Positions 18,326-63,842 of a DNA stretch of 64,000 nucleotides are shown one piece after another. The notes beneath the pieces were generated by a model. The model worked only from the letters and a program-made list of their open reading frames with translations, made no database searches and was not told the DNA's origin. A program made the translations under genes and the position numbers. Each line of letters opens with the position of its first letter. Positions within the stretch are counted from its first letter, which is position 1. This DNA comes from Ananas comosus (lineage: Eukaryota > Streptophyta > Magnoliopsida > Poales > Bromeliaceae): the NCBI RefSeq assembly GCF_001540865.1, contig NC_033645.1, positions 2,722,773-2,786,772 on the forward strand, read 5' to 3'.

Positions 18326-19490
18326 TTTTTTTTTTTGAAAAATAAGTAGCAAGTTACATGCTTCATTCATTAAGAAAAATGAACTGAGCGTACAAGATGA
18401 AAGCAACTAAGGCCTTCTGGAAACAGGCAAAAGAGAGGTAAAATTAAAAAGCGAAAGAGAAGGGGCAAGGTGAGAATATAAAGAAAAAAAAAAGAAAAAA
18501 AGTCTAGTGACACATCAGAGTAGTGCGGTCCAATTGCTATTCAGAATTTTGACACGTTCTAGAAACCGGGTAGCGTTGGGCGGATTTTTTCGAAAAACGG
18601 AGTTGTTTCTATCCGTTTAGACCACCCACCAAATCGCAACTAGAATGATCAAGCCTTGTGTTCTCAATGAGTCAACAGGGTTGCCAAAAATTACGGCCTA
18701 AAGACTTCGGACGTCGCCCGTGATGTCGTCAGTTGTGTCCAATCCTTCCACATTGAGGAGAAGGTATCGTACGTAAACACAGTTACTGAATAAATGATCG
18801 CAGCTTTCCGTAAGTACCACACAGAAAACACAGTTTTGGTCTACAAGCATACCTCGATTGAGCAATCTATCAGTGGTGAGTAATCTCTTCCGAAGTAACA
18901 GCCAAATGAAGACTTTGATTTTGATTGAAATTTTCAAATTCCAAATGTGCAAGTTCATCGAGACTCGCTGTCCGGCATCTGTGATGAACTGGTAAAGAGA
19001 TTTGACTGTAAATAGTTGATTGGAGGTCCACCGCCATTTGGTTGAGTCTGGTCTGTTGCATGGGTAGTGGCCTAGGAGCAAATCTTTAAACATCGTTAGC
19101 CGTCTGCGACTTTCGATAGATTGGGACGCCTTGAAACCGCGACAGATTAAGCGCTATCTCCATCTGTCAGGGTTCCAGCACTGAGATACTTGGACCTCCT
19201 TGTTTCTAATGTTCCGAAAGATATCCGAAAATAGGGTGCGAAGAGCGGTTTCTCCAATCCAGATGTCGGACTACATCTTGATATTTCTTTCATCACCTAG
19301 CTCATAGGTTACTCCACAAGTAAACACTTCTCGACACCGGGCCACACTTTTCGACCGCTGGAAGTAGGGGACGAAGGCTCTACCCTCGAGTAGTGGCCTT
19401 CTTCTGACATAATAGAGAGATCTAATTAATTTGCACCAAAGTAGGTTTGGCTCATTGAAGAAGTGCCACCATCATTTGGTTAATAAGACC
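18326..19490 (-). mobile_element. 5'-truncated LINE, ORF2 C-terminal part
   Basis: Minus-strand translation from about 19490 down gives degraded ORF2 with LLWCKLIRSLYYVRRRP, then an open stretch at 18698-19093 with the zinc-binding reverse-transcriptase-associated domain (KIKVFIWLLLRKRLLTTDRL, then a CVFC and CDHLF pair). It ends with the family 3' tail and a poly-T run at 18326-18336 on plus. The rest of ORF2 is absent, as usual for 5'-truncated L1-type insertions. Several frame breaks show it is dead. Confidence 0.8.
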
Positions 19491-19839
19491 AAATTCATGG
19501 ATCTTAAAAAGCTATTTCACTGTTGCGTGTACTACATGACATCTTATTTTAGGTTTCTAGCTACATTAACATTAAAATTTGACTAGTAGCTAAGTAAGCC
19601 ACTGATTCACTCAATCATTCCTATTTGATGCCTGCATTGTGTTTAATGTACGATAGTGATTATGATACTGATTCAAGTAGTTAGCTAACTAATCAAATAA
19701 TTATTTTTACTTGTCTTATTTATATTTTTTTCATTAAAAATTTTAAAAGCTATTAGATTTTTGAAACATAAATAATATGTAAAAATAACATTGTAAAAAA
19801 TAGTCGTCGACTACTACGTTATCCGGATTGGTATTCTAC

Positions 19840-31841: not shown

Positions 31842-32225
31842 ATATATATATATATATAGTACGCTTGAGATGATCCTTATTTACGTGGACATTATTGTTT
31901 TTACAGGAACTATATTAATTGTGTGACTTTGTACTTTTAAAAAAAAAAAAAAAATCCTTTTGACCCTCTCAGTGGGAACGGACGGTTTGGAGGATCCTAC
32001 CCGATCTTAACAAAATTATGTAATCAAATAAAAAAGAAATCGTAGGAAGTGAAGGACTTAAGCTCTTTATTTCTATGTATGGAGTTTTTTCTCTTATTTG
32101 GCCTTTCTACTTTTCACTTCACATTTAACGCTAGAGAAATGCTACGGAGGAAGTTATTTGTAAGAAAAAGATTTTCTGAAAGAAAAAAAGGAGCTCTATA
32201 TATATATATATAGAGAGAGAGAGAG

Positions 32226-32514
32226 TCTAGGTACTATACTTATTATATTCTTATGAATATAGACCTTCTTGTACTCATAAATTTTTAACCGTTAATTGAT
32301 GGGATGTGTGGTTACGATGATGGTGGTTAATTTCCACTTAGAATAATGGTGGTTCCCACTTAGAATGATAGTAGTCCTCTAGAGTTGAGCGGGTAGTTGG
32401 TTGAATAGTATGATCTAACAGGTGAAAATAATCAATGAAATATATAAATCTAAAAGCTGAAAACTTATGAGTATAAGAGAGCCAATACTTATAAAAGTAT
32501 AGTAACCGGACTCC
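32226..32514. mobile_element. Small fold-back MITE, copy C
   Basis: The left end TCTAGGTACTATACTTATTA and the complement of the right end (GGAGTCCGGTTACTATACTT) share the same order of words, with TACTCATAA on both arms. It is preceded by a (TA)n(GA)n tract. It is related in end design to copy A. Bases 32560-32746 contain a further partial copy sharing GAAAACTTATGAGC and TATAATAGTCCTAGCA. Confidence 0.65.
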
Positions 32515-32746
32515 TTATAAGTATATGTCTCTTTATATTCGTTAGTTTTCGACAGTAAAATATATTCCTTTCATCATTTCCACCTATTAGATCATACTAT
32601 TTAATTAACCACTCACTCAACCATAGAGGATCACCATCATTTTAACTGGAAACCATTATTATCCTAACTACACATCCCTTTATCCATCCACTGAAAACTT
32701 ATGAGCACAAAAGAATCTATACTCACAAAAGTATAATAGTCCTAGC

Positions 32747-32764
<18 letters not shown>

Positions 32765-32828
<64 letters not shown>
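32765..32828. repeat. (GA)n microsatellite
   Basis: A pure GA run of about 60 bases directly follows a (TA)n run at 32745-32766. Confidence 0.95.
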
Positions 32829-32830
<2 letters not shown>

Positions 32831-33365
32831 GTGCTGGTATGCTTATGGAAGCACGGAGGCTTCCGTGCTTTCAAGTCGTTTTCGATGTTCGGACTTTCGA
32901 AACGACGATCGGCTCCGTTAGACTTGATCTAGAGTATTTGAAGTACCTAGAAAATAAATTTTGTGATTTTTCGATATCATTTGCCTAGTGATCAAAGGGG
33001 CTCAAAATCAATAATTTTAATGGCCGTGGTGAGCCGTTTGCAAGTTTAACGGTGTAGAAATATTCAAATCACGTGAAATTTTGATAGAAAATTCTTTATA
33101 CTATATAAAATAAGATTAATATCTTTGATCTAAATTTTTAATGTCATATCATCACATTTTGTGAGATTTTTATTTTCAGCCGCTGATTTTGAGCCCCTTC
33201 GATCACTAGGCAAATGATATCGAAAAATCGCAAAATTTATTTTCTAGGTACTTCAAATACTCTAAATCAAGTCTAACGGAGCCGATCGTCAATTCGAAAG
33301 ATCCAACATCGAAAACAACTTGGAAGCACGGAGTGCTCCGTTCTTCCATAAGCATACTAGCCGCA

Positions 33366-33368
<3 letters not shown>
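32829..33368. mobile_element. Large fold-back MITE with about 190-bp arms, copy E
   Basis: The arms at about 32829-33018 and 33170-33368 are nearly perfect inverted repeats (TGGTATGCTTATGGAAGCAC on the left, complement TAGTATGCTTATGGAAGAAC on the right). They share an internal phrase with copy A (GATCTAGAGTATTTGAA). The element sits between a (TA)n(GA)n tract and a 45-bp (TA)n tract, the insertion habit described for Micron-type MITEs in rice. Confidence 0.82.
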
Positions 33369-33415
<47 letters not shown>

Positions 33416-34356
33416 CAAGCTAAAATGACACACCTATATCAATAATTATTATCTAGCATTCATTTTTCCTTGTAATCCCTAACACGTAATGAATAAAGAA
33501 CTGTTTTTGTTGGCAAATATACCTGTACCTAGGAGGCTGGTAGCTAGGCAGTAAGACGAGACATCAATAATTAATATTATATATACTTTGAAAAGTGATC
33601 TCTTACAACATAATAAAGTCGAAAAAAAGGAAGAAACTAGAGCTCCTCTGATATTTATTTCTAAGGTGCGTACCTGTTAAAGAGGTTAGGAAATTTAAAT
33701 CTCAAAGCATTGGATGAAGGAAGAGGGTGGCTCTAAAAGGAGCTTAGGATTTGACTTTGAGGCTTCTTGCCTCTCCTTTTTTTGTTTTTCGATCACTTGT
33801 CGAATTTGAGAATTCAAACGATTGATTGATCCAAAGAACGTATGCATGGTAAAACATTTGAAGTTAAAGTCCAAGGCAAGATTTATCCACCTCTTAAGGT
33901 CAAAATAGCAAACTATGTACGAATTTTTATCCGTTAAATTATGAACAACTTTATATTAGCTGATTATATATAGTGTAATTGTGAATATGGACTTGTCACA
34001 CGTAATTGCATGCATCTGAGTTTCCCGAAGAGTGCCAAGAGTAGTAATACATGATATACTATCACTTACATATTTTACAATCTTTTTACTAACTGATTAA
34101 CATGGTGATACGAAAGATTTTAGTTGGATCGATGATTGATATAATTTATGAGGAGAGTGCTGGTGCAATTCGTGTAAAAAATGAGTGGTAACCATAATAT
34201 ATTGTTAACTAAGTAAATATTAGAGAAACAATGTGACAGCAATACATGTAGGCATGGCATTTTTGAAGAGTGAAATGTACCGCAAGAATAAAGGGTATAT
34301 ATGGTGCATCTCATAGTAGTGAAAACTTTTTTAAAAAAAAGAAATTGAATGCTAAT

Positions 34357-40400: not shown

Positions 40401-40927
40401 TTTTCCCCCACTTTTTAATTGCAGAATAATTTAGAGGACAAATGCGAGTTTCACTTATATTATTAAACTTGAATCTACTTACTAAATTTTAGTTTTAAGT
40501 TTAATAGATTTCTTTGCTTCTCTAACAGAGAGTTGATGTACCTTATTTTTTTAAGTGTAATGCTAGATTTACAATTACTTTTTGGTTGTAATCTGTTGTA
40601 ATTTTACAACTTATACATTACCAACTCTTTGACGCTAGTCATATCATTCTTTTATTTTTAAACATTGATAATTAACAAGAATTGTATAGATCCTAGGAGG
40701 TAGAACTACAACTCTTGAATTAAGGATTGTAATTCTCCGATCCTTTTTGGGTTTTTGGCTTAATATTTTTCATATTTTTTAATTAGTTATCCTATCATCT
40801 TTTAAAGATGATGTCACTGATCCGCTATCACATATTTTTTGAAGGGATAATTATCTATGTACTCCTCAAAAGCGCAAGACTTTCATATTTACCCTAGAAA
40901 AGTTTTAATGATGAACTACGTATCCAG

Positions 40928-40929
<2 letters not shown>

Positions 40930-40974
<45 letters not shown>

Positions 40975-43400
40975 AGGGGAAGGCGATCGACTGTACGCCG
41001 ATCAAGACGACTAGGGAGTTGGCGACCACGGCGACAGGGAAGACGGCGGCCAAGACGACAGGCAAGACGGCCAAGACAATTGGCACGACGGTGCTAGGGA
41101 AGACGGCGGCCCCCTGTCCCAGACAGCTGGGGAATCCTCTGCGTCGGTCAATCGAGCGAACTGGAGCAGTGAATGTCATTTCATCTGGACTGAGTATAGA
41201 CTTGGAGCGGAGGTTTCAAGAGCTTAAACATCATCTGGGCAATGGAGTTATGGCAACCACCCACCCCTCAAGCTCCAGCATTAATGATCATTCCTTAGCT
41301 AAGAAGGTGATCTGGGCGGACTCAGCTAGATTGGACTTGGCTCAAGTTACCTTCTTCAGCAAGGATGATTCCCCTACTGCTCCTGCCCCTAGTGCTCCTG
41401 CTCCAGCTGTAAAGGACACGGACGGTAAGGGAGCGCCTGCGGATCGGCCTTGGACCGAAGTGCATTACAAAAGAAACGGACGCCTCGCTCCTCCTGGCAA
41501 ACCGTCCTACAAAGAGGCCCTCCTCTACGCAGCCCCACCCTCCTCTTCACGCAACCCTCCATCACCTCTGCGCAACGCTCTCTCGCGTAACCCTCCGCCG
41601 CCACCTCTGCGCTTCGCTCCCGCGCATCGCTCCCGTGCCTCACTCCCTTCGCGTCACCCTCCACCACCTCTTCGTAACATTCTTCGCAACACTCCCCCCA
41701 AGCGCTCTTTCAAGGATCGGTGTTTCCAGTGCCTGGGACGGAACCACAGAGCGGCCGCTTGCCGGGAGCCTTTGCGGTGCGCTCTGTGCCTCAAAACGGG
41801 TCACAAGGCGCGGAGCTGCATGGATCGCCTCCCGATGGACGTCTACCGCTACATGCGCGCTCGCCCAGCTTACCTGAACGTCTTTGTTCCGCAGACAGAA
41901 GACTTCTTTGCCCGGCAGAACAGGCGCCGTAATGCACTCCTTGTGGATGTCGTCCCCCCCGCGAATCTTGGCCACTTCGCTCAAGACACTATCGCCAACG
42001 GTCTCGCCAACCGTTTCGGAGGCTTCCCCACGGACTTTTTGGTGGCTCGCTACAGGGATCGAGAGTTCGTGGTGTTTCTTCCAGAATGGGTTCCAAGCGA
42101 CTCCCTTGTCCGAAGGCTAAACCTCAGCCTGGGGGATATTAGATTACCATGCTATGCCTGGAATCCCTACAGTGGCGCCCGCCGTTTTTCTCCCCCTTAC
42201 AAAGCTTGGATCAGACTGGTATCTCTCCCCTATGAATGTTGGTCTTCCCGTACCGTTGCGGCTATCGTCGGCGGCTTCGCCCGGTTCATCAGGGCGGACG
42301 AGCACACGACTCGCATGATAGATCTCTCCGGCTACCGCTGCCTCGTAGCCGTCAACCACCTCCATGACATACCCGAGAATCTGGAGGTCGCCTTCGGGGA
42401 CGTCTCTTTGTAGGTCCTAATCCAACTTGAGCGTTGGGCTCGGGATGGCGACAATGGCCGTGGTGATCCTCCTCCCCCGCCCAACGAGCGAACGGACCAT
42501 TTCGATCCTGACATGAGATCTTTAGAGGTGGAGCGTCGGTACTTTGGTGAAGTACGAGCGCGGAGGCCCCTGGACCACGACCCCAACTCGGACGGCTCCT
42601 CTAACTCCTCCGAAATCCGAGATCGGAGGCGCTGCCAACCACCTTCACTGGGCCTCATCGCCCCCCTGGAATTGGGGTCGGTGCCGGTGACCGAGGCTTC
42701 TCCGACCTCCCTGGGGTCGGGGTCAGCGCCTGTGGCCGAGGCCTCTCTGGTCTTCACGGGATCGGGGCCGGCTGGTACTCCGGTCGGTGACGCCTCGGCT
42801 GACTCTCCGGTCGGTGACGCCTCGGCTGATCGCATCCCGTACCCCAAGGGCCAGATTTGCCTTTTTCCAAATCTTTCCTCCTCTGTGCAAGTTGACCTTC
42901 CTGTTGGAGAAAGTACTGGCCTGCCTGCTGATCATGCCTCCTTTTTGTCTCACCATACTCAGCCTCGCTTACCGTCTGCCTGTTGTTGGAAAACGAGCCC
43001 TTCGGATCAAGCCGAGATCAGCTTTTGTACAAGCCTCGTTTATCGGGAAAAGTCCCTGCGCATTAATTCTGCTTGGAGCCTCTCCCCCTCAGGTCCAGTA
43101 CTGTACTGCTATGTTTCAAATTTCAAACTACGTTATTTGGGCCTCTGTCCGATGGGACTGTCGTGGACCCTCCTCTTCGCTGCGCTTTTATCTGGCCCAC
43201 ATATCTACCCTGCACTAGGCCCCGGGTCATTCAGTTGGACCTCGGATTCATTCTGTTGGACCTTGGAAAGTCAGCGAACGGCCCGGGCCCACCTCTTCTC
43301 CCTGGGAAGCCATTTACTAGACTCTACCGGTTGGTCCACCTTGGGCCTGGCCTTGGAGAGCCCGGGAAGCCAATTGCTGGACTCTACCGGTGGGCCCAAC
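40930..43400 (+). mobile_element. L1-type LINE, ORF1 region
   Basis: The open frame is continuous from 40857 to an in-frame TAG at 42411-42413, and the same frame resumes beyond it to the gap at 43401. It encodes two CCHC zinc knuckles of the CX2CX4HX4C type (CFQCLGRNHRAAAC and CALCLKTGHKARSC, about 41720-41820), preceded by a Pro/Arg-rich basic region and followed by a DUF4283-like region (AYLNVFVPQTEDFFARQNRR and on). This is the RNA-binding ORF1 protein of plant LINEs. A (GA)n run at 40930-40974 lies at or near the element's 5' end. The TAG is either a true nonsense mutation or an error, since the downstream frame still reads ORF1-like (VLIQLERWARDGD). The sequence ends at the N with no endonuclease yet visible. 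Confidence 0.85.
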
Positions 43401-43401
43401 N
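43401..43401. other. Assembly gap (single N)
   Basis: It separates LINE ORF1 sequence on the left from unrelated sequence on the right, without any sign of a LINE end. Confidence 0.85.
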
Positions 43402-50699: not shown

Positions 50700-50700
50700 N
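50700..50700. other. Assembly gap (single N)
   Basis: Unrelated sequence on the left meets the middle of a LINE ORF2 on the right, with the ORF2 frame open from the very first base after the N. Confidence 0.9.
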
Positions 50701-52437
50701 GGACTAGAAGTTATTGTTCGATCGTACTCTCTTACTGTACGCCTTTCCCATCACGCGAGCGGCTCGACCTTCTTCATCACTAATGTTTACGGGCCCCCCA
50801 CCTGGGAGGGTAAGGACGCCTTCTGTTCTGAATTGGCTTCCCTCAAAGATATTTGCTGCACCAACTGGGTCATCTGTGGGGATTTTAACTTCACCAGAAA
50901 TCAAACCGAAAGGAGTGGGCGTACTTGGAGTAGAAAATCCATGGACATGTTTTCGGATCTCATTAATAACTTAGAGGTCATTGATGTTCCGCTTTCAAAT
51001 CAAAGCTTCACTTGGTCTAACATGCATCGTCAACCCACCATGGCAAAACTAGATAGGTTCCTCGTCTCCACGGAATGGGACCTCTCTCACCCACTGTGCA
51101 AGGCCAAAGCCCTCCCCAGAATCACCTCTGATCATACTCCGATTCTCCTCTACTCTAGGCTCCCCCCTCCGACGCGTAGGTTTCATTTTGAAAAGGTCTG
51201 GCTCACGAAAGAGGATTTTATCTCCAAAGTACCACTATGGTGGAACGAAGTCAGCCCTAAAGGATCAGCGATCCTCACTATAGCTGCTAAACTGAGGCAC
51301 TGCAGAGTTCGTATGAAGGAATGGTGCAAATCGAACTTTTACAATATTACCGTAGCTAAGAAGTCCCTTCTGGACGAGCTCCAATCCATTGATCAGATGG
51401 AAGAGCTCCAAAATCTGAGCTTAGATCTCCACGAAAAGAGAGCACGCATCAAATCAAACCTCACACAGATTTTGGAAGAAGAAGAAGTCCTCTGGAAAAC
51501 CAGGTCCAAACAATTATGGCTCAAGGAGGGGGACGCTAATACCAAGTACTTCCATGCTGTGGCCAACGGCAGGAAACGCACCAACTCCATTGAAGTAGTA
51601 GAAGATGACACTGGGAGACTGTTAAACACGGAGGATCACAAAAGATCATTTTTCTATCAGCATTTCCGCCGATTGTTCTGTCAGGCAGAGGACGGACCTT
51701 CCTCCTTCGGGGACTGGAGCGCTCTCTTCCAATCCAACACGCTACTACAACCTGAGTGCCTAACTGCCCCCTTCGACATGGAGGAAGTCAAGGCTGCTAC
51801 TTTTCAACTTGGTAGTGATAAAGCTCCTGGACCTGATGGGTTTCCACTTATCTTCTACCAAACTTTCTGGGAAACCGTTAAAGACGACATTTACAAGATT
51901 TTCATTGACCTCCAAGGGGGCACGCTTTCCACAGCCCCGATTGATTACTCCTTCATCTGCCTCATTCCCAAGAAAGAAGGCGCGCGCCAGGCCAAGGATT
52001 TTCGCCCAATTAGTCTCATCAACGGCATCCAGAAAATTATCTCCAAAGTTCTTGCGAATAGGATTGCCCTTGTTCTACCATCTATTATTTCTCCTTCCCA
52101 ATCGGCCTTCCTCAAAGACCGACTGCTTGCGGACTCGTTCGTCAACGCCTGCGAATTAGTCAGTTGGTGCTCCAAAACCAGGAAGGAATGCGTCAGTATC
52201 AAAGCGGACTTTGAAAAGGCTTTCGACAACGTTCGGTGGCCCTTTCTGAAAAGAATCATGCTTTGGCTTGGGTTTAGTGAGAAATGGTGGTCCTGGATTG
52301 AACAGTGCGTCTGTAATGCCAAATTAGCCATCCTTGTGAACGACACTCCTACAAACTGGCTGAAAACACGAAAGGGTCTTCGGCAAGGCGACCCTCTCTC
52401 CCCCTATCTCTTCTTGATAGTTGCAGATTGTCTTTCT
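50701..52437 (+). mobile_element. L1-type LINE ORF2, first part (endonuclease end and reverse transcriptase)
   Basis: The frame is open from 50701 without a stop to the seam near 52437. It begins in the endonuclease domain (TFFITNVYGPP, WVICGDFNFTR, then TWSNMHRQPTMAKLDRFLVS). It then passes through a linker into reverse transcriptase: KAPGPDGFPLIFYQTFW, FRPISLINGIQKIISKVL, QSAFLKDR, KADFEKAFDNVRW and GLRQGDPLSPYLFLIVADCL. The catalytic YADD-type motif should follow within about 30 codons but does not appear in this orientation; it is found, in the same frame, in the mirrored block starting at 58725. The lack of stops over 570 codons suggests a recently active element. Confidence 0.93.
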
Positions 52438-52478
52438 GGGATCGAAGAACATCAAACATCGTCACCCCTCTCCTCTTC

Positions 52479-54589
52479 TACCTAGCCGCTTTGGATTGCG
52501 CTCGTCGTTCGTCGAACCCCTATAGCCTACACCGCGACTCGGACCACTACCCCATGCACCTGCTGGGGGCCCTGGCTCGCCGGCGGAGCAACCACACGGC
52601 GTTCACCACGCCGCAGCTGCCGCGGTGGTCCTTCGCGCACTGGCAGCGGAAGACGATGAGGCGGTGGGGGCTGGCGGAGGCGGCCGCTAAGGGGACGGAG
52701 CTCAGGGAGTTCTAGTTCCGGTTCGGGGCGCGGCGGTACAAGCTGGAGTAGGGGCTGCTGACCCCCCCGATGCGGCGCGGGACCTAGCGGCTGTAGCGGG
52801 CGAGGAAGCTTACGGAGTGGCGGGAGGTGGACGCGGCGTACCAGCAGTGGCTACGACTAGAGCGGGAGGAGCAGGCCCCCTCCCCTGGGAACGAGGAGAG
52901 CGAGTTCGAGCTATCCACGAGGCCGAAGAGGTGGCTACGGGAGCGGGAGCAGCGGGCTAGAACGTCCATAAAAGAAAAGACGAGTATTTTTTCTTACCGG
53001 GGAAAAGAAGATGTGAGACGCTCTGGAGGAAACGAGCGTTGTCGTTACAGCGGGGGCGGGTCTGGGTCTGGGTCTGGGTCTTCGAAATGGTGAGGAGAGG
53101 GGGACAACCGGACAAGACAAATAAGAGGGAGGACAAGAGTAGGCGGAAGACATGAACAACGGTGCTGACAAATAATGAGAATAGTAGCGTTGTACGTCCG
53201 CGGAATCCTGGAAGAAGAATCTTCTGTCGAGCTAACGGCTCTTCCCAAGACTTACCGAGGCCCTCGAGCGAGAGTTGTTACGGCAGGAGCTCAGAGATTT
53301 AAAAATAAACTGGCTCGAGTCATCGAGCGGTGTTCTGGAGCAGGATGAGCGATCTTTGACGGCTAGGGACCGCAGAAACTTCTAGCCGCTTACACTACAA
53401 AGACTAGACCACCTCAAAAAGGCATATCGGTGCCGTGACGTCCTCAAAACACCCCCTCATAAACTACGGGGACGTCCGAGTCGACTATCCATGTTCTTGA
53501 AGGCAAAAGGTTGAAGCGACGCGAGGGACCCAGACTAGATGTACCCTTGCTTACTCCACGTGTGGCATGAAGGTACACGGCCGCGTGAGTCGTTCAATCT
53601 AGAAGTCATGTGCAAGGAGTCGTGGCTCCTAGTAACGGTCGACTAAGTTGCTACGGGGTTAGATCTTTAAGATCTCCATCCTTGATGCTGTCGAATAACA
53701 CATAACGAAGCATGTTCAAGATTAGTAGAACACTCCGTACTCCTTTCATGAGAACAGAACTAAGGACGAAATTAAAGACGTTGTCCAGTCCCTGCACTAG
53801 CCCCTGTCTCCCGATCTTCAGCAGAGGGCGTGGACGTTCTCTAACGCTTCTGAGTCTCATCTTTCTCCCCTACTACTCGTTCCTCCTGAGCTCCTACTTG
53901 TCCCGTCCCAAAGTGTAGTTCCCAACTGCCGTTATAGAGCCCCGACGGGACTCGACGTTATGGATCGTTATGTACAGAGACTGTAGTGGTTACGCCGAGA
54001 GCTTAGCCAGCCGTGAACGTCGTCTTTAGAGAGACTAAAGGCTGAACAGAACGAACTGTCTCTTCTCTTATAATGTCTTAACGGGGAACTGTTGCCTCAG
54101 GCGCGGTACAACTCACCGACGAAATTCGACTCCTCCAAGCGTGAAATGGAGTCTGGGCCTCCCGAAAGCCTACAGCCAGAACCAATATAACCCCTCATGT
54201 CACGATTGTAGGCCATATACAACGACCCATTTCAACCCCTCAGACTAGAGCCCGATCTTTACAAAAGTTCCCCAACGGGATTGAACGTCTTCGACCTTGA
54301 CTCCCCGACGACGAAATCGCTCGCACGAAACCGAGAGCGCCATTATGTCGAAAGTCGTAACTTTATGAATACCCAAGTACCTATGTCGCGTAGAGGTCTG
54401 CCGTCCCTTGAATACCGGTACCGTGCTGGTAAGACCTTGTAACTCAAATAAGGAGGATATTAACAATCATTACGCCGACTACTATCCCCTTGGCCACGTC
54501 TCTTAGCCCGAGTCTATGAACGCATGGCAAGGGAACGACCATTCTCCTACCTAACGGGTCTTAGACATTAAGTAAACGTAGGTTGGACT
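52479..54589. CDS. COI1: COI1 jasmonate receptor F-box protein (readable only as the plain complement)
   Basis: F-box/LRR subunit of the SCF-COI1 ubiquitin ligase; it binds jasmonoyl-isoleucine together with JAZ repressors in the nucleus. Reading the complement from left to right gives exons 52479-52966, 53199-53676 and 53786-54589, total 1770 nt, 589 codons plus stop, against 592 residues in Arabidopsis. The start is the complement of tac at 52479. The N-terminal F-box region shows LVMGYVDDPRDRAAASLVCR and the family hallmark ATPDRLRRRFP with KPRAAMFDL. LRR landmarks include YMGTNEVHTVLPC, DLQYTFLSTEDHCQ, DRGLEVVSRTCKRLRRLRVE and FRLVLLDREENITELPLDNG; the end is QILAYRSLAGKRMDCPESV. Introns obey GT-AG in this reading. 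No frame breaks were seen. In true orientation it would lie on the minus strand, convergent with the MEE59-like gene. Confidence 0.95.
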
Positions 54590-55893
54590 TCCCGTGTATA
54601 ACATCGAAGAACAATCAAAGGAGAGTAGTGCACACAACTGAGAATCAGTAACTCTAGCAATCCACATTAATACAGAACAAAAATACAGTTGTGATCAAAC
54701 TAGTGGCTAATAATATATGATAAGTCCTCTCTGTGGACTTGTTCAGTGTAAAGAGTTCAGTAACGTGTAAAGGAAGTCATAGTAACCTGTATAAAAACTA
54801 GAAATGACGACTAGCAATACTAGTAATACCTCACGGTAGTGGCGTAGACATAGTAGGAGCTACGATTACTCAAGAAGCGTCACAAAAATAACGATCACGC
54901 AAGAAGTTTTACAAATATATAAGGTTACGTGTGTATTATACACAAGTAAGACAAGCCGCAAGTGTATCTCGTGGTTATCTGGGAACATGGTAAATCCTAA
55001 ACAGGGAGGGCAGTCGGACAAAACCCTAAAGCGAAAACGGCAACACATAGTGATACGAGACACTAAGAACCTCACACTCTTCTACTAGACGACACAGTTG
55101 TAAAGAATTGACTATTCAAAAAAACAAGAGATTTAGGACTGTGTAGTAAACCAATTACTGAACAAAGGCTAAAGAATAAACAAACCATAAGAATACCATA
55201 CATAGCACAATATTGTATACGATCGCTATTTAGTATAGAACCGTTCCCATATTACGATAAATAATGACTTTGATTATAATAGCAGTGATTAACCTAGTCG
55301 TACATGATGTGGACAGACGCTTTATCTAGATCAAAGAAATAAGCACCCTTTGGAGCGCTAGTACAATAGTGTTAAGATTGAAGTTGTTTTTGAACGTTTT
55401 CAATTGTCTACTACCGAAAACGTTACTTAGGCGATTGTAGTTAAGCCATCCTACCCGTAAGAGTCTTAGTCCATTTTACGATAAAATCAAGGACCCTACG
55501 TTATTCTTAATGTCCTTATTTTAGAATGTGTTACAATAAATCGAAGACCATCCCACCGTTTATATATTGACCGTCTGTCTGGTATTATCGACAATATTTC
55601 GTTCTAGAAATACGTTTTTATCTACTTCGTTTACCTTTATCTATATTGTACCGACTTTAATGTTACCAAGGTGGTGTATCTATCGAGAAGTTCCTCGTTT
55701 GATTGATCCGTGTAAAGAAACAGGGACTTTAACCTTCGTTGGTCTGCCATCTACACGCAGAAAGTGAACGAGCCACTAATAAGTAAGGTATTCAGTGTGT
55801 AGTGAGGACATTCCAAACACGCTGCAACCTTGGTGGACTTTGGTTTCGTCAAATATGCTAATAGCTGTACTCGTCCTCGGTAAACCAATTTTC
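54590..55893. other. Intergenic between COI1 and the MEE59-like gene (mirrored)
   Basis: In corrected orientation this is the space between two convergent 3' ends. Neither mirrored reading gives a further gene that I recognise. It should hold both 3' UTRs. Confidence 0.5.
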
Positions 55894-56584
55894 AGTTCGC
55901 TCGCCTCAGCCCCCATTATGGCATAGTCGTCTACCATAGGTGAGTAAACAACGGCCTAACGGGGACGTCCTTTGTACCGGCAGCCTACGTAGTCACAGTC
56001 CGCATTAAACCTTCCTCGACGGTAACCTAAAGAGGTAGAACTACTTCGGACATGGTCAGACGGTTCGTTTTCCCCATCCATCCTCGTCCCGTACTCTATA
56101 CTACTTATATATATATATATATTTTTCTTTTTCTCGTCTGTACTTTTTATATAAAATATACATGTCACACCACGACGAACAGCTGCGTCAACTCTAGTAG
56201 CATCATGAGACAGACGTGCATAAGGAGATGGTGGAGTGATGGAAGCGTTTGGTTGAAGACGTTATATTGCACGCTGTGTCGTTTGTTTAAGACTGTAAAG
56301 GATAGGTTCAGGATTATGTGTCTCTCTCCTTCTAGATCTCTCTCAGCTTCCTCCTGGACCGGCCTCAACCGGAGCTCCACAACCTTGAACACCACGAGCC
56401 CCTACCTCAGCAGCGCCGCCCTCCCTCCTTCCCGCAGCCGCATCTGCCTCCTCTTCAGCGACGCCCTGCCGAACCTCACCGCGACCCCGCGCTAGGGGAG
56501 CTTCATCAGCGCGCGGAGGCGGAGAGAGGAGAGGAGGAGGAGGCCCCAGTTCACGCGCAGCGAGGCTAGGCCGGAGGTGCTGTA
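55894..56584. CDS. MEE59: MEE59-like plant protein (readable only as the plain reverse)
   Basis: Small conserved plant protein of unknown biochemistry, named after an Arabidopsis embryo-arrest line. Reading the printed letters from right to left gives exons 56584-56357, 56257-56165 and 56058-55894 (228, 93 and 165 nt), 161 codons plus stop, with GT-AG introns. It starts MSWRPDRSDAHLTPEEEE, continues RHSKPSRSDFSSVYADAL, then KLVCEGSEVVEEYVQTEYYD, HHTTGTGFIKMEKSNG across the second splice, and ends near GNPATNEWIPSAD. These words and their order fit the family as I remember it (Arabidopsis At4g37300). I assign no function beyond that. In corrected orientation it is on the plus strand, with a LINE poly(A) about 260 bp upstream of its ATG. 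Confidence 0.85.
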
Positions 56585-56843
56585 GAGATAGAGAAAGGGA
56601 CGCGGAGCGAAGGGAACGGAACAGAACCGAACCGAACGGGCCTTCTATTAATTCTATCTATCTACACACGCACACACTGTCCGATGATGCACCTTCTCGG
56701 AAGGGCCTGACGCACACATATAGGAACGGAACACCTGGTCTTACATTCTCCGGTGTGAAGGGTGGTTTTATAGACCCTGATTCACAATTTCCCAATAATG
56801 TCCATTTATATTCATCAGAAATTTCAAGCCCTTTACGTAAACT

Positions 56844-58725
56844 AAAAAAAAAAACTCTTTTTCCTTTCCGTCGTGCGATAGACGAAGTAAGTAAATCTTC
56901 TACTTAATCCGAATGTATTACCTCCGTCGGCCCCGGAGGCTTCCCTCTTTCTCGCAGTTTTCGGTCTTTTTGTTTCTGTTCTTTTGCTTTTGCTGTTCTC
57001 TGATTTTGGTTTTCTTTCCTTTGCTCCCATTCCCTTCGTTTTCGCTGTTTTTGATTTTGCTTTTCTCCTTCTTTCTTTCTCATTTTGCTGTCCGCAGTTT
57101 TTCGTCCCTAGGTCGTCCCAGTTGCTCCTCGCTAGATCCACAGTTCGTCGTCAAAGTGGGCAAGGTCCGTGGCTTATCCCAACCCCCGTTAGAGAGCTTT
57201 CTAATTTGGTAAGGAAAGGCAGGTTTGCTGGGTGGTTTACCGTCTTTCCTCCCTCTCCCTTCATTCAGATAGAAACCGCAGAGAATCTAGTTATTCAAAT
57301 CTGGTCTCCAGGGAGTGTAGCAGGCGCCCTAGTCTGTCTCGGAGGTTCGGCGGATGCGAGTCGTTTTACTTCGCTTGTTTCTGTGTCCTTGAGTACTCCA
57401 CCAGCGTTGAAAGGTTTAATTGCCGTGTCTTTTTTATACAAACTAGGCCATCGGTGGGGACGAATACCTCGGACAGACGTCACCCCTAGGAGAATGCTTC
57501 ATCATCGGTATTCTTATGAAACTAGAACGGTCCTTATAAGTTAAAGGTCTATACAGCTGAATCCCCCAGATGGTACGGACTCAGGCACTCTTTCACTATC
57601 TCCCTAGACTGACTTTTGAAAACCAACCTCCAGGTTGCGGTAAACTAAACCAGACCTTCGACTCAACCGGCCTACCCGGCTTCGTTCAGGTATTCGTCCG
57701 AGAAAACAGATACTATCAAGGGTCCATCTCCGGGACGACCAGGCGCCGTCTATATAACGGTGGCGGTTGGTAATCCCGGGGTCGAGACTCGTTATCAACA
57801 GAGGAACAAAGCCCATACCGACATCTACAGCCCCTTCTCTCATGCTTCCCCTCGGAGCGGTATGGTTTAACTACTGGTTTAGAATTATAGAAACGGCAAA
57901 GGCTCCAACATCCAACATGGCGTAAATTTCTACAGGGCCGTAGCGTAATGTGAAAAGGTGGTGACTCTTATACCATGCTTCCGGGGCGGGAGTAAGTCTC
58001 CAAACGCAGATTATATTATTTAGCTAGACTGATTGAAGAAGGTCCCATCTAGACCAAGCGATTTCTTCGCGGTGGTGGTGAATCAATTTTCGCGACATAA
58101 GTATCAGCGGTTTAGGATCTAAGGATCCGGAGGAAGAAAAAACGAAAACGTCTGACGAGAGGTTAAATGCTCCGTACGGGGAGGTCTATACAAACTCGTA
58201 GGCGCGGTTTTCTTTCGAGAAGAGTTCCGAAGTTAAGCCGCGTCTCGGGTAACACCTCGAAATTTCTGCCTCTCCTTCACTTCACCGTATAAACTTTCCT
58301 GTCTCAAGTGCTCCTAGTTGGAGGGAGGAACCCTCTCCTCGAACCGGAAGGTGGGAAGTTAGGAGAATAGTTACGCCAACTATTACTAGCTGGTCAGGAG
58401 AAAAGCGTTCCTAGATAACGTTTCCCCATCGGGGTCTATCGCCTATCCCTCCGAAGGTTGAACCGTCGGGTCCTACAATCGTTCGGACCATCGAGATCTC
58501 CACAAACTCGGGTCTATCATGTCAAGCCTGAACAGGTATAACTAAGCCTCAGGTCTCCGGGTAAGTATTTAAAAGGTATTCTTTGCGTTTAAAGCGTCCT
58601 ATATAAAGGACCCGAGCGTCTTCTTCTAGCACAGCAGCCGTTTAACTTAGTCTTATCAGACTGTCAGGCTTCAGCCCGGTTAAGGGGCTTCTTCCGATAA
58701 GGACGTCCGGTACAGCCTTTCAGAC
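56844..58725. mobile_element. LINE ORF2, second part, and 3' end (readable only as the plain reverse)
   Basis: Read from 58725 leftwards, the frame continues ORF2: GIGPTSDCQTILIQFADD gives the reverse transcriptase catalytic site, then LRINMDKSELYYLGSN and RYLGLPLCNRSLRKEDWSII. The zinc-binding domain lies at about 57540-57420 (KIKVFLWLLLRKRIPTADRL). The element ends with AATGAATGAAGCAGATAGCG at about 56892-56873, the tail common to all LINE copies of the window, and an A-run at 56853-56844. Together with 50701-52437 this makes an almost complete ORF2; I saw no stop codon in the portions translated. Confidence 0.9.
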
Positions 58726-58726
58726 N
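58726..58726. other. Assembly gap (single N)
   Basis: Right end of the mirrored block. The sequence to the right is in normal orientation (CRL1-like and cyclophilin genes read normally). Confidence 0.9.
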
Positions 58727-58953
58727 GCCGCCACTAGCATCGACGGAGGTGTGGGTAAGGTAGAAGAGAGTAGCGCGGCGTCGACGTGGTGCCAGCAGAG
58801 GAAGAAGAGAAACCACAAGAAAAGAGAAATGAGAACAACGAGAAGGAAGAAGAAGAAGATGAATGGTTACCTTTGGATTGGGAATCGAGAATGGGGATTA
58901 GGGCGAAGTAGTTGCAGGAGCTCGTGGGATTCGGAGAAGTGTGCGTGGTTCAT
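58727..58953 (-). pseudogene. 5' end of an unidentified gene, cut by the gap
   Basis: On the minus strand an ATG at about 58953 opens MNHAHFSESHELLQLLRPNP and continues to IQ followed by a good donor (AAAG, GTAACC) near 58869. The rest to 58727 looks like a T-rich first intron. The next exon would lie beyond the gap. The upstream side carries GGCCCA site-II-type motifs (59188-59212), which supports a real promoter. I do not recognise the peptide. Confidence 0.5.
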
Positions 58954-58959
58954 TTTGGC

Positions 58960-59560
58960 AACGCTTCGTACACCAGAATAATTAGCGGTTCATTCCTAAC
59001 GGTTGGAATTATTACGTGGACAAGGTTCACCACGTCATTGATGAACCACTCAAACTATTCACCGCTCATTCTACAATTTGGCGGCGATGATTTCAAAAAG
59101 TGGCAGATGGACGGTCGATAACTAGGCGGTTCACTTATGATATGGTGAACAGCGCATAGGTGATAGGACGAATCTATCCAAACAATTACGGCCCATTTAG
59201 GGCCCAATTAAACTAGCCCGAGCTAGATGGACCTCAGTTTTTATAGGCCCCCGATTAAATTACACTATTTATGCCTATGAAGGTTATTGGGCCTTTAATT
59301 GTATTGTTTACTACTTTGTCAAATTAGGCTCGGAAGGCCAATTTTAAAATTTTGTGAATTACCAAATTAATTACTAGTATCATATTAGTTTTAAGTGGGT
59401 TCTAATTATATATGTTCTAGATAAAGACACATGAAGCTTTCAATTTTCATAAGTCCGTGCGATTGATGCAGTCCCAAATTTGCACCAACTTTTCACCACC
59501 ACAAATAATTGACGAGTACAATAAGATCCAAAACTTCTAATTGTTATGGGACGCAATCAT
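58960..59560. other. Intergenic, promoter side of the truncated gene and 3' flank of the LOB gene
   Basis: Several GGCCCA/TGGGCC words occur at 59188-59293 (for example GGCCCATTTAGGGCCCAATT). These are site-II elements often found in promoters of plant housekeeping genes. No coding sequence was seen. Confidence 0.45.
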
Positions 59561-60401
59561 TCATGCACTGTTTAAATAAGCAAAGCTTGTTTGTTGAACA
59601 TCTTGTTGCGCATCTAAAGTGGCCATGGCACAGGAAGAGCTCTCGTCGGCGGCAGCGAAGGCGACAGGATCATCGTTCACGTATGAATGTGGGTCGTAGC
59701 ATTGATGAGGTGCAGGGAAAGAGATCGAATTGAGAAGCCCGTTCTCATAACAAAGCATGGTTTCGGCGTTAATCGAATTCGATGGCTTCTGGGAAAAGCC
59801 CGAGCCATGTTGTGCTTGGCTGGGTAAGAACCTGCTACTGAAGTTGTCTTCTTGGAGGCTTAAAGTAGAAGGAGAACAGTTGATATGGCCTTGTCTTGCT
59901 TGGGCCTTTAAAGAAGCTACTTGTGCTTGCAAATTCACTACCTGAAGAATAAAAACAAGTAGTTGTAGATGTTAATGCCCTGAAATATTTGCCAAAACCA
60001 TGGCTTTGTTGATTTGTCCCTATCAATGTTCAAGGTTCACAATTAAGCTATTTTAAGTAGTGATGAACTGGTCAGAGTGAGACTTCAACTTTGTAAGATG
60101 TCTTTTATTAATCGGTAATTACCTGCTGCTGGAGCGCGAAGATGTGAGCGACGCAGCCGTAGATTGGGTCTCGGACCCTGGCCTGCGCCTCGTACGAAAT
60201 GGTGACGGCCGCCTCGCACCGGTCGGCCACCGGCAGGTGCGCGAGGAGCTTCGAGGCGTTGCTCGCCCCGAACACCTTGTGGATCGCCGCGAAATGCGCC
60301 GCGCCTTGCTCATGAGAGAAGTAGGGGGCAAACACACATCGCTTGGCGCACTTCCTTCTTAGAAACTTGCATGCTCCGCAAGGAGAGCCAAACCCCGTCA
60401 T
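59561..60401 (-). CDS. CRL1: LOB-domain transcription factor of the CRL1/ARL1 (LBD16/LBD29) class
   Basis: Plant-specific DNA-binding protein that in rice (CRL1) starts crown-root primordia downstream of auxin. Two exons on the minus strand: 60123-60401 and 59561-59941, 219 codons plus stop, with one GT-AG intron after QQQ, the normal LBD position. The LOB domain is complete: [15 protein letters not shown] (CX2CX6CX3C zinc-like block, about residues 8-22), the GAS block within [17 protein letters not shown], and the leucine-zipper-like part across the intron ([15 protein letters not shown]). The N-terminus [13 protein letters not shown] is the same as in rice CRL1. The C-terminus is divergent, as usual, but ends FAYLNSA like the rice protein's AYLN end. 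I call it an orthologue from the sequence; expression and role are inferred. Confidence 0.93.
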
Positions 60402-63130: not shown

Positions 63131-63350
63131 ATCATTAAATTTGTTGTATAATGTCTTATATTTATTTCTACTTTTCATTGAACAGGGCTTCATTAGGTCT
63201 AGAAATAAAAAATGGCAAACCCTAGGTTTTTCTTCGACCAAAAATTATTAAATTTGTTGTATAATGTCTTATATTTATTTCTACTTTTCATTGAACAGGG
63301 CTTCATTAGGTCCAGAAATAATGGCAAACCCTAGGGTTTTCTTCGACATA
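63131..63350 (+). repeat. Tandem duplication of about 112 bp across the acceptor and start codon
   Basis: The block TTGTTGTATAATGTCTTATA to the phrase coding ANPRFFFD at 63139-63238 is repeated at 63253-63349. Both copies carry the polypyrimidine/AACAG acceptor, the leader GGCTTCATTAGGTC and an ATGGCAAACCCTAGG start. The left copy has small indels that break the reading frame; the right copy is the functional one. Confidence 0.9.
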
Positions 63351-63842
63351 CTGATTGGAAAGGCGAAAGCCGGGCGCGTAATAATGGAGCTGTTCGCCGA
63401 TGCGGCCCCGAAGACCGCTGAGAACTTCCGATGTCTGTGCACCGGAGAGAAGGGGCTCGGCATCTCGGGCAAGCCACTTCACTACAAGGGCTCGACGTTC
63501 CACCGCATAATCCCCAATTTCATGTGCCAGGGCGGGGACTTCACCCGTGGCAACGGCACGGGCGGCGAGTCCATCTACGGCCTCAAGTTTGCGGACGAGA
63601 ACTTTGTGAAGAAGCACACTGGGCCCGGCGTGCTCTCGATGGCCAATGCCGGCCCGAACACGAATGGCTCGCAGTTCTTTATTTGCACCGCAAAGACAGC
63701 GTGGCTCGATGGGAGGCATGTGGTGTTCGGGAAGGTTGTGGATGGGTACAGCATCGTGGAGGCGATGGAGAAGGTCGGGTCGCAGAGCGGGAGGCCGTTG
63801 GAGACCGTTGTGATTGAAGATTGTGGGCAGCTCGAGGAGTGA
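63321..63842 (+). CDS. Cytosolic cyclophilin (peptidyl-prolyl cis-trans isomerase)
   Basis: Single coding exon, 173 codons plus stop, following a leader intron (62500-63298). It is the one-domain cyclophilin A type with the plant-specific insertion [11 protein letters not shown]. Catalytic and cyclosporin-site residues are present: [15 protein letters not shown] (Arg, Phe, Met, Gln), [12 protein letters not shown] and the tryptophan in [14 protein letters not shown] chose the ATG at 63321 because [10 protein letters not shown] matches the family start; an open frame extends upstream through the duplicated leader but is not conserved. It folds proline-containing proteins in the cytosol. Downstream sequence to 63960 is 3' UTR. 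No defect seen. Confidence 0.95.

Follow-up and report, generated by a model that had tools for sequence, protein, structure and literature searches.

The question raised by this locus is whether a block of about 6.3 kb in the window (the whole stretch of 64,000 nucleotides of Ananas comosus DNA that was analysed) is written in a letter order other than that of the DNA it represents and, if so, how it came to be written in this way. When the block was translated in all four letter orders, long frames resembling known families appeared in two of them, the reversed and the complement-only order, and in no other. The evidence set out below confirms that positions 52437-58725 of the window are the mirror image of genuine DNA, with the order of the letters reversed and the bases left uncomplemented.

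52437 to 58725, no strand assigned: mirror block, the true sequence reversed without complementing, as seen from the LINE frame, homologue alignment, composition and tblastn.

One gene in the block encodes COI1 (coronatine-insensitive 1, the jasmonate receptor F-box protein). It becomes legible when the printed letters are complemented but not reversed, and after in-place reversal of the block it therefore lies on the minus strand.

52479 to 54589, no strand assigned: COI1 gene, in the plain-complement reading only, not reversed.
52479-52966, 53199-53676 and 53786-54589: COI1 exons, in the complement reading.

In the complement reading, the COI1 frame starts at 52479 and remains intact over 589 codons, with a single stop at its end, across introns of 232 and 109 bases that both obey the GT-AG rule. 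The encoded protein shares 588 of its 589 residues with P0001 of Ananas comosus, its residues 15-583 align to the solved Arabidopsis COI1 (PDB 3ogk_B) with E = 7.1e-229, and Pfam recognises both an F-box_5 domain (E = 1.8e-14) and a Transp_inhibit domain (E = 9.9e-23). The likeness to known COI1 thus extends over the full length and includes the F-box as well as the LRR parts, the difference being that the gene of the block is readable solely as a plain complement. A coronatine-insensitive 2-like gene of pineapple (Aco001397) is named as the potential jasmonate receptor in passages of PMC10644199.

When P0001 was compared with the window by tblastn, the printed window yielded nothing better than E = 1.0, whereas the reversed window yielded the three exons at E = 0.0, 0.0 and 3e-100. 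Because of these E-values on the reversed versus the printed window, the mirror reading is far beyond chance. Chance resemblance was ruled out on the same tblastn values.

The left edge of the block falls within the ORF2 of a LINE, the two parts of which are printed in different letter orders.

50701 to 52436, plus strand: first part of the LINE ORF2, printed normally (end of the endonuclease and first two thirds of the reverse transcriptase).
57198 to 58725, no strand assigned: second part of the LINE ORF2, readable backwards only (end of the reverse transcriptase, and zf-RVT).

In tblastn, the LINE homologue P0241 aligns with its residues 84-659 to 50707-52437 as printed and with its residues 660-1166 to 58724-57198 read in reverse, with no residue missing between the end of the printed segment at 52437 and the start of the reversed one at 58724. 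Following in-place reversal of 52437-58725, the LINE is restored, without any base gained or lost, to a single frame of 781 amino acids that ends in an in-frame stop. The restored join is spanned by 112 of the 120 LINE homologues listed, and 105 of these 112 are ungapped within about 8 residues of it. The RVT_1 domain is itself split over the join, with profile positions 1-135 of 205 in the printed part (E = 1.9e-22) and positions 146-204 of 205 in the mirrored part, where the segment scores 26.0 bits (below the cut-off of 29.6). The mirrored part further contains zf-RVT (E = 1.2e-18), and the endonuclease is represented by its C-terminal part only, at 21.9 and 25.1 bits (below the cut-offs of 24.5 and 27.4). 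The succession of endonuclease, reverse transcriptase and zf-RVT is the domain order of a plant LINE (L1-type) ORF2. Because the first half of the LINE lies at the left on the plus strand, reversal in place, and not complementing, yields the true order: the correct order of the LINE was regained by the former operation and not by the latter.

The edges of the block carry an uncertainty of about 3 bases that is symmetric, in that the edge pairs from 52438-58724 through 52434-58728, obtained by shifting both edges jointly, are indistinguishable. An earlier note on this DNA had placed the start of the block at 52438, which is one base off, as the pair 52438-58725 leaves the LINE frame broken (588 amino acids, then a stop). 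The COI1 and LINE ORF2 readings that the same note had described in mirror or complement order were recovered by gene model, Pfam and tblastn.

A further copy of a LINE elsewhere in the window offered a comparison that stays within the window.

18542 to 19507, minus strand: older, normally oriented LINE copy that aligns with the reversed but not with the printed block.

The reversed block matched this older copy both by tblastx (54% over 269 residues, E = 6.5e-110) and by blastn (64.8% over 611 bases, E = 2.3e-22). The printed block, compared with the rest of the window by blastn and tblastx, gave no match at 1e-3. The mirrored LINE (58088-57490, read backwards) and the minus-strand copy at 18542-19507 are related elements. 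A short repeat, with copies at about 11.8, 18.4, 21.9 and 29.8 kb, likewise matched the reversed block.

Reading the block backwards also reveals what is likely a second gene, as judged from its open reading, which we presume to belong to the MEE59 family.

55894 to 56584, no strand assigned: putative MEE59-like gene, in the backwards reading only (56584 down to 55894).
56584-56357, 56257-56165 and 56058-55894: MEE59-like exons, read backwards, in the chosen model.

This reading is open across GT-AG introns and comprises three exons in the chosen model, a provisional choice from at least 12 GT-AG models. Pfam returned no family for its first open stretch of 90 residues.

As a control, 360 proteins (120 each from the COI1, flanking LOB protein and LINE searches, so that the choice of proteins depends on the window) were aligned to both strands of the window by tblastn at E <= 1e-5. 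With the printed reading, none of the 360 proteins matched in the block and 240 matched outside it, and with the reversed reading 233 of the 360 matched in the block and none outside it. These counts bear out the claim of the earlier note that the block is reversed and not complemented. Protein hits after reversal, the absence of which that note had set against its own claim, were found for the same 233 proteins, and its prediction that annotation made in the usual way would miss the genes agrees with the complete lack of protein matches to the printed block. An ordinary genomic inversion would likewise reverse the order of the parts, but, being a reverse complement, it could still be read on the opposite strand, whereas tblastn on both strands matched none of the 360 proteins to the printed block. 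Neither would an inversion explain why the reversed block, but not the printed one, matches the LINE copy at 18.5-19.5 kb. With the printed block unreadable on either strand, an ordinary inversion was rejected, and we consider its probability negligible.

Composition, which does not depend on homology, agrees with the protein evidence. For each piece tested, a word model of order 4 was trained on sequence that excluded this piece as well as the block, and scored as the log-likelihood of the printed minus that of the mirror order. The block scored –125.2, while 30 equally long pieces lying clear of the block (but overlapping mutually) scored between +44.2 and +144.0; composition therefore prefers the mirror in the block and in none of the 30 pieces outside it. 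A mirror reading exchanges CG with GC, TA with AT, and TG/CA with GT/AC. For the block, the counts are 386/290 for CG/GC, 430/325 for TA/AT and 602/804 for (TG+CA)/(GT+AC). The corresponding counts are 151/217, 486/589 and 784/615 in the left flank, and 196/262, 342/413 and 680/544 in the right flank, so that all three ratios of the block are inverted with respect to both flanks.

Outside 52001-60000, the bins of 2 kb favour the printed order with the sole exception of 32001-34000, which is slightly negative at word orders 4 and 5 and not at order 3. This bin contains TA and AG runs, and its 250-base bins are all positive in a model trained on that stretch; its mirror-like signal is probably a repeat effect. 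A composition test for long segments detected no second mirror block in the 64-kb window.

At its right edge the block meets a single N, and a gene in normal orientation follows further to the right.

58726, no strand assigned: single N that abuts the block on its right; the window has four Ns in all.
59564 to 60401, minus strand: LOB-domain gene with two exons, in normal orientation (60401 to 59564).

Composition leaves this right edge unsharp, the best mirror segment being 52137-59137, and the stretch 58727-59137 scores –1.6, –1.7, +0.2 and –4.4 with word models of orders 2 to 5. The orientation of 58727-59563, beside the N, is ambiguous by composition between printed and mirror. The LOB protein is identical to P0121 (an Ananas comosus LBD29 entry) at 216 of 219 residues. 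The first 97 residues of P0002 (the CB5 COI1 model), searched by tblastn against the window in both readings, gave a best E of 0.017 at a distant position (5.9 kb), and adjacency of the upstream exons of P0002 to the block on its right side is thus not supported. Moreover, P0001 (COI1) and P0121 (LOB) are located on different contigs in their source, so that the piece may or may not belong at its present place.

The other Ns of the window are consistent with joins. A LINE ORF1-like frame with DUF4283 (40851-42410, plus strand) lies before the N at 43401, the LINE ORF2 begins at P0241 residue 84, six bases to the right of the N at 50700, and an AT-rich stretch of 7.3 kb separates these two Ns. 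Pieces separated by single Ns may stand in the wrong order. A cyclophilin-type isomerase frame is present at 63252-63839 (plus strand).

How a mirror image could have come to stand in the window is a question first of whether it exists in the plant. For mirror-image DNA that is physically present there, parallel-copied by an unknown process, the sequence itself is the only witness, while known polymerases and recombination routes are all antiparallel and inversions give reverse complements. In addition, COI1 is intact to the residue and without decay, which fits an error in the text and not an old, unreadable insertion, and we regard physical mirror DNA as exceedingly improbable. Because no known enzyme copies DNA into a parallel-strand mirror, the block is best taken as a string-handling artefact, the letters of which are real but which is an artefact as biology. 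That a text error in one form or another, in assembly or in later handling, underlies the block is virtually certain. The protein counts, the LINE frame and the composition likewise support the earlier note, which had put the block down to a string having been reversed during assembly or in the handling of files.

Within this class of errors, a string-handling error during genome assembly, made when the 6.3-kb piece was inserted at a join or as a fill, is the probable cause. The single N at 58726, at the very edge of the block, suggests such a join or fill step. Contigs often end within repeats, and some scaffolders mark a join without a measured gap by one N; a left edge within a repeat and a right edge at an N would fit a join or a gap fill in assembly. 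The piece was probably kept in minus orientation with its position correctly determined, and at write-out one of the two reverse-complement steps was probably omitted. The left join would then be exact because the place of the piece had been correctly determined. Counting against an assembly step are the left edge of the block, which has no N, as well as the unsharp composition at the right edge and the slightly negative bin 32001-34000.

Alternatively, the public assembly could be correct and the block could have been reversed later, by a script or deliberately, in preparing the present copy. In-place reversal of a correct sequence would yield exactly the seamless join that was found, and the pineapple COI1 proteins P0001 and P0002 are public in readable form. 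Furthermore, no public protein equal to the printed LINE frame was present among the best 120 of 1741 matches (the best of which have 59-65% identity), and because no listed public protein equals this frame, the public record is not shown to carry the mirror. However, an edit placed at random would only rarely have an edge at an N, of which the 64,000 bases contain four (by our own estimate, an edge comes to lie within two bases of any of them in about 1 in 1,600 cases). The proteins P0001 and P0121 differ from those of the window by 1 and 3 residues, respectively, and lie on different contigs; they likely derive from another assembly and are uninformative here. A later reversal is unlikely in our judgement, and an error during assembly remains the preferred reading.

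Reversed, non-complemented DNA serves as a negative control in sequence searches, and the block results from the same letter operation, by which composition is retained and homology to real DNA is lost. Such controls belong to test sets, whereas the mirror block sits within a genome sequence. Contig orientation errors in assemblies resemble the block in that a piece lies near its right place in the wrong orientation, but they are reverse complements that can be read on the other strand, whereas the mirror block can be read on neither. In a pineapple assembly, wrong orientations and misassemblies were manually corrected, as stated in passages of PMC8774480. The mirror block is not described in the passages of the pineapple papers PMC8774480, PMC8945601, PMC10644199 and PMC6022998 that were available, and no title on reversed-not-complemented blocks was among the matches listed in a literature search.

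The finding matters in the first place for data quality, as a jasmonate receptor gene, a likely second gene and half a transposon are hidden from BLAST and gene finders, and mirror errors escape checks that are restricted to both strands. A word-composition test combined with tblastn against the reversed sequence provides a cheap means of detection that is applicable to whole assemblies. A released pineapple assembly might contain pieces mirrored at join or fill steps, leaving the COI1 locus and possibly other genes invisible to standard annotation, and the same might hold for other assemblies; we put this forward tentatively, as a real possibility short of an expectation. If true, mirrored genes caused by this software fault would be present elsewhere too, and a scan by composition or reversed BLAST could find them. 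As for pineapple COI1 itself, calling the gene absent from this locus in the present copy would be false.
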